A DNA stretch of 64,000 nt. It comes from Polycladomyces abyssicola. Its GTDB lineage: Bacteria; Bacillota; Bacilli; Thermoactinomycetales; JIR-001. Under the pieces are notes generated by a model that did not search any database, was not told the DNA's origin, and saw nothing but the letters and a program-made list of their open reading frames with translations. Below are positions 26,043 through 28,466 of this stretch, in pieces; position 1 is the first letter of the stretch, and every line of letters starts with the position of its first letter. The translations under genes were made by a program, and so were the position numbers. The stretch spans positions 2,034,001 to 2,098,000 of the forward strand of contig NZ_AP024601.1 of the NCBI RefSeq assembly GCF_018326425.1, read 5' to 3'.

Positions 26043-27500
26043 ATGATGCCCAGACAGTATCAAACACCGCTATTTACCAAGCTGAAAGAACACGCGGCAA
26101 AAAATCCGATCCAATTTCACATACCCGGACACAAAAAAGGGCATGGCATGGACCCCGAATTTCGCGATTTCATCGGTCCCAACGCGCTCTCCATCGATTT
26201 GATCAACATCGCGCCCCTGGATGATCTGCACCATCCGCACGGCGTGATCCAGGAAGCGCAGGAATTGGCGGCGGAAGCGTTCGGGGCGGATTACACTTTT
26301 TTCTCCGTTCAAGGAACCAGTGGTGCCATCATGACGATGGTGATGTCCGTCTGCACGCCGGGAGACAAAATCATTGTCCCGCGCAACGTTCACAAATCCG
26401 TGTTGTCCGCCATCATTCTCGCCGGCGGCCACCCGGTATTCGTGCATCCGGCCATGGACGATCAGTTGGGCATCGCCCACGGCGTCACCGCCCGTGATGT
26501 GGAAAAAGCCCTCCGCGCCCATCCGGATGCCAAAGCGGTGTTGTTAATCAACCCGACCTATTATGGTATTGCCGGCAACTTGGCCGAAATCGTCGATTTG
26601 GTGCACCGTTGGGACATTCCGGTGCTGGTGGACGAAGCACACGGCATTCATACGCATTTCCACGAACGGCTCCCCATGTCCGCGATGCAGGCCGGGGCAG
26701 ACATGGCCGCCACCAGCATGCACAAACTGGGAGGATCGCTGACGCAAAGCTCAGTCCTCAACGTCAAGGGCAAGCGGATCAATCCCAATCGGGTGCAATC
26801 GATCATCAGCATGCTGACGACCACATCGACATCATATTTGCTCCTGGCTTCGCTTGACACGGGACGGCGTTTTTTGGCCACGCAAGGTCATGCTCAATTC
26901 GAACGGGCATTGAGATTGGCCGATGAGGCGCGTAAACGAATCAACGAAATCCCGGGCATCGTCTGTGTCGGCCGGGAAATCCTCGGTTCGGACGCCACAT
27001 ACGACATGGATGAGACCAAGCTGACCATCCACCTCAAACATTTGGGCATCACCGGTTATGAAGCGGAAAAATGGCTGCGTGAGAACTGGAATATCGAAGT
27101 GGAACTGAGTGATTTGTACAACATCCTGTGCCTCATCACCCCGGGTGACTCGGAAGAAACGATCAGCTTGCTGGTAGAGGGTCTGCAGGATTTGTCCCGG
27201 CATTTTTATTCGCCCGACCGGAAAAACGGCGGTCCGATCCGCCTGCCGGATATCCCGGAATTGGCGGTATCACCGCGGGACGCGTTTTATGCGGAAACGG
27301 TTGCCGTTCCGCTGGAGGAGTCGGTCGGTCGCATCATTGCCGAATTTATCATGATTTATCCGCCGGGAATCCCGGTGTTGTTGCCCGGTGAACGGATCAC
27401 GCAACAAAACATCGACTACATCCGTGAACATTTGGAAGTGGGATTGCCCGTACAGGGGCCTGAAGATCCCGATATCCGAATGGTGCGTGTGATCCGCTGA
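26043..27500 (+). CDS. speA: Orn/Lys/Arg decarboxylase family (arginine decarboxylase SpeA-like)
   Basis: The 485-residue PLP enzyme has the fold-I motifs FHIPGHKKGHG, the Schiff-base lysine in TSMHKLGG (Lys228), VDEAHGIHTHFH, and the family C-terminal domain (IIAEFIMIYPPGIPVLLPGE). Length agrees with B. subtilis SpeA (490), the first polyamine enzyme; a lysine decarboxylase or YaaO-type relative is the alternative. ATG 26043 follows AGAGAGG. The SR1-like gene converges on it, a neighbourhood that recalls Bacillus, where SR1 is next to speA. Confidence 0.87.
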   Translation: MMPRQYQTPLFTKLKEHAAKNPIQFHIPGHKKGHGMDPEFRDFIGPNALSIDLINIAPLDDLHHPHGVIQEAQELAAEAFGADYTFFSVQGTSGAIMTMVMSVCTPGDKIIVPRNVHKSVLSAIILAGGHPVFVHPAMDDQLGIAHGVTARDVEKALRAHPDAKAVLLINPTYYGIAGNLAEIVDLVHRWDIPVLVDEAHGIHTHFHERLPMSAMQAGADMAATSMHKLGGSLTQSSVLNVKGKRINPNRVQSIISMLTTTSTSYLLLASLDTGRRFLATQGHAQFERALRLADEARKRINEIPGIVCVGREILGSDATYDMDETKLTIHLKHLGITGYEAEKWLRENWNIEVELSDLYNILCLITPGDSEETISLLVEGLQDLSRHFYSPDRKNGGPIRLPDIPELAVSPRDAFYAETVAVPLEESVGRIIAEFIMIYPPGIPVLLPGERITQQNIDYIREHLEVGLPVQGPEDPDIRMVRVIR

Positions 27501-27534
27501 AACCCACCCATGATAAACGGGTGGGTTTTTATTT
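27501..27534 (+). terminator. Terminator of speA
   Basis: AACCCACCC and GGGTGGGTT flank a 9-base loop and are followed by five T residues. Confidence 0.8.
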
Positions 27535-27538
27535 CGTA

Positions 27539-27569
27539 CAAAAAAAGAAACACCGCCCGTGACGGGCGG
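27539..27569 (-). terminator. Terminator of the SR1-like RNA
   Basis: On the minus strand CCGCCCGTCACGGGCGG is followed by a T-rich tract (TTTCTTTTTTT). A TTTGTCAACAGTCT box immediately precedes it. Confidence 0.7.
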
Positions 27570-27782
27570 CGAGACTGTTGACAAAGTGATCGAGCCATTC
27601 ACTGGAATCTATTTCATCAAGTGCAAAGGTTGTTGGGAGGAAAACGGTCACGCTCTTCAAAAGAAGGTCAGAATCTCTCGTCGGGTGTCGTGCTTTAGAT
27701 TGAAGCTCACATGTCAACAAAAATCGGACTAGCTGTATGGATGAGTGGTGTATCACAAGTGTTGTCGGTTTCAGATATTCAG

Positions 27783-27923
27783 TCATGCGGTTTGCGATGC
27801 CCTACGTTGTCCGCGCTGCTTTTCCTCACCGCATCCAGGACATTTGCCGTACAACACACCAGTTTTCTCGGCTTCCGTGAAGGCGATGATCTTGTCGCAC
27901 GTTTGGCAGACAATCACTTCCAT
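27783..27923 (-). CDS. GapA-binding peptide SR1P
   Basis: The 46-residue peptide has the SR1P signature: MEVIVCQTC at the start, the centre EAEKTGVLYGKC, and a closing CPGC pair. It differs from the 39-residue Bacillus peptide by a longer basic tail (EEKQRGQRRASQTA). AGGGGG lies seven bases before the ATG. In B. subtilis SR1P binds glyceraldehyde-3-phosphate dehydrogenase GapA and supports RNase J1. The match is by residues, context and promoter together. Confidence 0.78.
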   Translation of the reverse strand: MEVIVCQTCDKIIAFTEAEKTGVLYGKCPGCGEEKQRGQRRASQTA

Positions 27924-27976
27924 GAGAAATCCCCCTCACGCGGAATTGTAACCGCTTCAATTAATGTGTCACTATT

Positions 27977-28005
27977 AGTATAATGTGATATCATATTTAT
28001 GTCAA
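27977..28005 (-). promoter_or_regulatory. Consensus sigma-A promoter of the SR1-like RNA
   Basis: TTGACA (28000-28005) and TATACT (27977-27982) are 17 bases apart. The spacer contains TGTGATATCA, which partly resembles the CcpN operator pattern known at SR1 promoters; that regulation is inference. Confidence 0.7.
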
Positions 28006-28040: not shown

Positions 28041-28100
28041 GAAACCGCGAGGCACGGGATTGATCCACACTTTCTCCCGTTATACCTCGCGGTCGGTTTC
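28041..28100. terminator. Long hairpin between SR1 promoter and DUF3055 gene
   Basis: GAAACCG-CGAGG on one side pairs with CCTCG-CGGTCGGTTTC on the other, with a second inner CACGGG/CCCGT pairing. Flanking T-tracts are weak, so a terminator for the minus-strand gene at 28164 is likely but not certain. Confidence 0.45.
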
Positions 28101-28163: not shown

Positions 28164-28466
28164 TTAATGCTCGGCCTCGGCTTCCAAGGTCAGTCCCGGA
28201 AGGTTGTTACTGAAAAAGACAGCCAACTCCTCCGCTTCTTCCTTGGACCTCAAATTGTACACCTTCTGCAGATATTCCAGGTTCTCCACATCATCTTGTG
28301 ACAACAGAGAGGAGCGTCCCGTCTGCATACAAACGACCAATGGCTTTCCGAAAAACATGTTGGTATACACGATCCCGAAATCATAGCGACCGTGTTCCGA
28401 AACAAATCCGACAAAACGCACCTTGACTTGTTCCGCTTCATCGTACAGCCGTTCATAGAGACTCAT
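28164..28466 (-). CDS. DUF3055 (SAV0927-like) protein
   Basis: The 100-residue protein has the strongly conserved stretch VRFVGFVSEHGRYDFGIVYT followed by MFFGKPLVVCMQTGRSSLL, characteristic of this Firmicutes family of unknown function. AGGAGG precedes the ATG. About 270 bases without a gene separate it from the GAF gene upstream. Confidence 0.8.
   Translation of the reverse strand: MSLYERLYDEAEQVKVRFVGFVSEHGRYDFGIVYTNMFFGKPLVVCMQTGRSSLLSQDDVENLEYLQKVYNLRSKEEAEELAVFFSNNLPGLTLEAEAEH

Follow-up and report, generated by a model that had tools for sequence, protein, structure and literature searches.

A 46-codon frame on the minus strand of a 64,000-nucleotide stretch of Polycladomyces abyssicola DNA (the window) raises the question of whether the SR1 regulator of Bacillus has a counterpart in this lineage, and whether a longer peptide and a longer predicted transcript signal a new function. 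In B. subtilis, the peptide SR1P binds GapA and promotes the GapA–RNase J1 interaction and RNA turnover (PMC8152036, PMC8464778, PMC8501984), and SR1 also pairs with ahrC, with CsrA helping (PMC8464778, PMC8501984). The locus examined here is a typical relative of Bacillus SR1; its longer tail and transcript are modest differences specific to the lineage and give no hint of a new function.

Identity of the peptide and of its locus

The product of the frame (27783–27923, minus strand) is MEVIVCQTCDKIIAFTEAEKTGVLYGKCPGCGEEKQRGQRRASQTA. The Pfam SR1P model, PF13790, matches residues 1–31 with 42.3 bits (E 8e-11) against a gathering cut-off of 26 bits, and SR1P is the sole family to exceed its cut-off on this peptide in Pfam and NCBIfam searches; within NCBIfam, no SR1P model fired on it. 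In an alignment of 32 homologues, the conserved residues C6, Q7, C9, K20, L24 and Y25 and the second Cys pair are all present. Since promoter, leader and coding frame are 90–100% identical among three congeners and the stop codon keeps its position, the locus is more than a chance arrangement. Judged by its sequence, the frame is SR1P and the locus is the normal sr1 locus of its bacterial order. An earlier note on this DNA had made the same assignment and had described the promoter, a Shine–Dalgarno (SD) sequence, a distal hairpin terminator and convergence on speA, all of which were recovered (Table 1). It had also envisaged that homology might place the peptide in an unrelated zinc-ribbon family. 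This reading is exceedingly unlikely: it can draw on weak, sub-threshold matches to other zinc ribbons and to Fur/PerR zinc sites, but only SR1P passes its cut-off, and both promoter and synteny fit the SR1P family.

By sequence as well as by structure, SR1P finds its best matches in the Zn(Cys)4 dimerisation domains of Fur/PerR regulators. These matches are not significant, and the resemblance is a possible hint at the origin of the peptide.

Table 1. Features of the sr1 locus and its neighbours (positions in the window)
Feature	Position	Strand	Basis and remarks
Convergent speA-type Orn/Lys/Arg decarboxylase gene	26043–27500	+	PF01276, E 2e-107
Predicted intrinsic terminator, hairpin and T tract	27541–27571	−	9-bp stem, 8 GC pairs; counterpart in congeners
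Long 3′ untranslated part (predicted), fast-diverging	27572–27782	−	Two congeners at 59% and 82% identity, large indels
SR1P coding frame, 46 codons	27786–27923; stop codon 27783–27785	−	PF13790 score; frame, tail and stop kept in three congeners
SD-like sequence GAGGGGGAT	27929–27937	−	Sequence; kept in congeners
cre-like site (CcpA) in 5′ leader, TTGAAGCGGTTACA	27947–27960	−	11/14
Second CcpN-like box at predicted start site, AGTGACACATT	27963–27973	−	9/11 (10/11 in congener G001); weak alone
Predicted sigma-A-type promoter, TTGACA-17-TATACT	27977–28005	−	11/12 consensus positions; same promoter in most relatives
CcpN-type box in promoter spacer, TGTGATATCAT	27984–27994	+	9/11 to TRTGHYATAYW; degenerate
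Upstream SAV0927-like (DUF3055) gene	28164–28466	− (same as SR1P)	PF11256, 118 bits

SR1P was found in 39 of the 42 genomes sampled from the genus and order of the window, typically behind the same promoter, which marks the locus as the ordinary sr1 locus of the lineage. A phylum-wide sample of 299 genomes yielded SR1P in only four, all of the window's own class. An alignment-based scan brings in Thermoactinomyces, Kroppenstedtia, Laceyella, Paludifilum, Shimazuella, Melghirimyces and others, together with Bacillus and Geobacillus. Compared with other SR1P loci of the Thermoactinomycetaceae (Kroppenstedtia, Laceyella, Thermoactinomyces, Paludifilum and further genera), the window has a similar peptide core, promoter and spacer box, and shares with many of them the cre-like site and the convergent speA; those loci have a shorter 3′ part, and tails of varying length and charge. 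The VxCQxC and LYGxC core, the speA neighbourhood and an intrinsic terminator are also common to the window and B. subtilis.

The gene order recurs among relatives. A convergent speA lies close to SR1P, adjacent within the fetched flank, in 29 of 47 relatives, and the SAV0927-like gene, which has its own terminator-like hairpin at 28057–28045 according to a terminator scan, adjoins SR1P in many of them. In a thirtieth relative (locus L015, genome G022), some 1.35 kb separate the SR1P stop from the speA match, and nearby, at G022:C67:87678-87740, lies a second SR1P-like match that is partial and below the cut-off (22.9 bits); this suggests that the locus has been rearranged or duplicated. In the window, a second hairpin, AACCCACCCG...GGGTGGGTTT (27500–27527), lies between speA and the SR1 terminator and probably ends speA transcription; one of two congeners has a clear counterpart, the other a less regular one.

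Promoter and probable sugar control

Promoters of the TTGACA...TATAAT type are common to the SR1P loci of relatives, and that of the window carries, as in B. subtilis, a CcpN-type box in its spacer. The genome encodes CcpN next to ppsR (347 bits with an equivalog model whose cut-off is 260), and CcpA is encoded with a score above its model cut-off. As the CcpN box consensus we took TRTGHYATAYW, which is matched at 11/11 at gapB and pckA of the genus and gives no match above 9/11 at gapA.

Taken without the relatives, both 9/11 boxes of the window would be unconvincing as operators. One congener has only 8/11 in the spacer, and the 9/11 of the window is among the weaker scores of the clade. Comparison gives these boxes their meaning: 22 of 44 relatives have an 11/11 match at one fixed place between −35 and −10, and the spacer box of the window stands in exactly that register; shuffles reach at least 9/11 in about 1.5% of cases. 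The second box likewise has the offset of the relatives' commonest second box. Downstream, the leader holds a cre-like site that the earlier note had missed. A site scoring at least 11/14 occurs in 29 of 50 loci (shuffles reach a score of 11 anywhere in about 5%), and in 24 of these 29, the window among them, it sits 15–16 nt after the −10 box. The arrangement differs in detail from that of B. subtilis, where one CcpN box precedes −35, another occupies the spacer, and the cre site lies some 260 bp upstream (PMC8464778); here the second CcpN-like box is at the start site and the cre-like site in the leader.

Sugar control of the predicted SR1 promoter is supported by these conserved positions and by the presence of CcpN and CcpA. 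The CcpN-type control proposed earlier from the spacer element is plausible in position and in principle, with CcpN encoded and the register homologous, but the box itself matches at only 9/11.

The C-terminal tail

The peptide has 46 residues, seven more than the 39 of B. subtilis SR1P, and was described in the earlier note as elongated by about 14 basic residues. The elongation relative to B. subtilis is confirmed. The 15 residues past the last Cys have a net charge of only about +2, and the length lies within the 37–53 aa (median 41) of 47 relatives. Eight of the 47 relatives reach at least 46 aa, three of them with an equally or more basic C-terminal end, so the extension is ordinary variation.

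The three congeners all keep the tail, with two substitutions, no indel and an unmoved stop codon, which implies that it is either genuinely translated or very young. In an AlphaFold2 model, three strands span residues 1–30 with pLDDT above 90, and the tail falls near 60. Given the length range among relatives, the conservation in congeners and the low-confidence modelled end, the 14–15 residues are best modelled as a flexible, mild lineage-specific end without sign of a new function.

The long 3′ part and the function of the RNA

From promoter and terminator, whose hairpin proper is GC-rich and spans 27571–27551, the transcript is predicted to start at about 27970 and to run for about 430 nt; that of B. 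subtilis has 205 nt. In the three congeners, 289, 432 and 302 nt separate the SR1P stop from speA; in the 29 relatives with adjacent speA (L015 set aside), the median distance is 114 nt and the longest 231 nt. The long 3′ part therefore appears to be real and genus-wide. No other stretch of the locus is so poorly conserved, even among congeners: in the comparison of G000 with G001 it shows 59% identity with 137 gap columns, against 94–96% for promoter, leader and ORF core and 89% for the upstream region. The full transcript shows no excess folding over shuffled sequence (z = +0.46). The simplest reading is that most of the 3′ part is unconstrained spacer between convergent genes, before a terminator that is kept. 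The contrast of about 430 with about 205 nt drawn in the earlier note thus stands as a prediction, and extends to the genus, but the difference itself is probably spacer.

That note had further suggested that the extra ~240 nt might hold a different base-pairing region. The lack of conservation and the shuffle-like folding argue against a conserved region of this kind, and the suggestion is not upheld. In its strongest form it would make the 3′ part a genus-specific base-pairing domain, and SR1 a dual-function sRNA with new targets. Such a domain would agree with stop-to-speA distances that in all three congeners exceed those of the relatives and with the preserved far-end terminator. It is quite unlikely in view of identities of 59% and 82% with large indels, where promoter and ORF core keep 94–100%, of the folding score, and of ahrC pairing that does not go beyond shuffles, although the positive control was likewise negative. 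A broader version, in which the SR1 of the genus gained an extended RNA domain on its 3′ side along with a basic SR1P tail that might bind RNA, and with them fast-evolving targets absent from other SR1 RNAs, is very improbable.

One further candidate within this region, a second small gene of 85 codons (27529–27786) overlapping the SR1P stop as ATGA, was rejected. The frame is open in the window and its start would be coupled to the SR1P stop, but it is interrupted in both congeners and runs through the terminator, which leaves it with almost no probability.

Whether the RNA pairs at all is a separate matter. The Rfam SR1 model, RF02376, scores the locus at 24.9 bits, below its threshold of 45; among the 20 loci to which it was applied, 19 from other genera and one from a congener, it fell short or found no match in 15 and reached the threshold in five. 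CsrA was not detected in the whole genomes of the genus (G000, G001, G002); another genome from the order, G003, carries two copies. Pairing of SR1 with ahrC, assessed by whole-length duplex scoring and by local 22-nt duplexes, showed no excess over shuffles, and a Bacillus-like control (G055) equally showed none. The RNA thus differs from B. subtilis SR1 in falling below the Rfam threshold and in the absence of a detectable CsrA. For these two reasons, while the peptide belongs to the SR1P family, the base-pairing half of the "dual-function" description is unproven.

The gene may accordingly keep only its SR1P-coding role, as a plain mRNA. We hold this tentatively, at slightly less than an even chance. 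The sub-threshold Rfam score, the undetected CsrA and the unconserved 3′ part speak for it; on the other side, the ahrC test missed the established pairing in the Bacillus-like control as well and so had no power, and a model reached by five of 20 scanned loci is too narrow to decide.

A working model and its meaning

The reading that we consider likely is that of an sr1 gene making a sugar-repressed SR1P mRNA for GapA, with a flexible tail and a 3′ part that is mostly spacer. Both gapA and gapB are present in the genome, and RNase J scores above its model cut-off, so that genes for CcpN, CcpA, GapA and RNase J are encoded here as in B. subtilis. By analogy with that organism, a sigma-A promoter, repressed in the presence of sugar by CcpN and probably by CcpA, would give rise to a short mRNA for SR1P. 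While glycolysis is off, SR1P would adopt a small zinc-ribbon fold of the Cys4 type and bind GapA, which would promote the interaction of GapA with RNase J and RNA turnover; the binding to GapA, the stimulation of RNase J and the direction in which sugar acts are all carried over from the Bacillus system.

The locus widens the range of a regulator well studied in Bacillus to take in an entire neighbouring lineage. It also provides a comparative set for the constraint acting on SR1, in which peptide, promoter and leader are constrained and the 3′ RNA of the genus is not.
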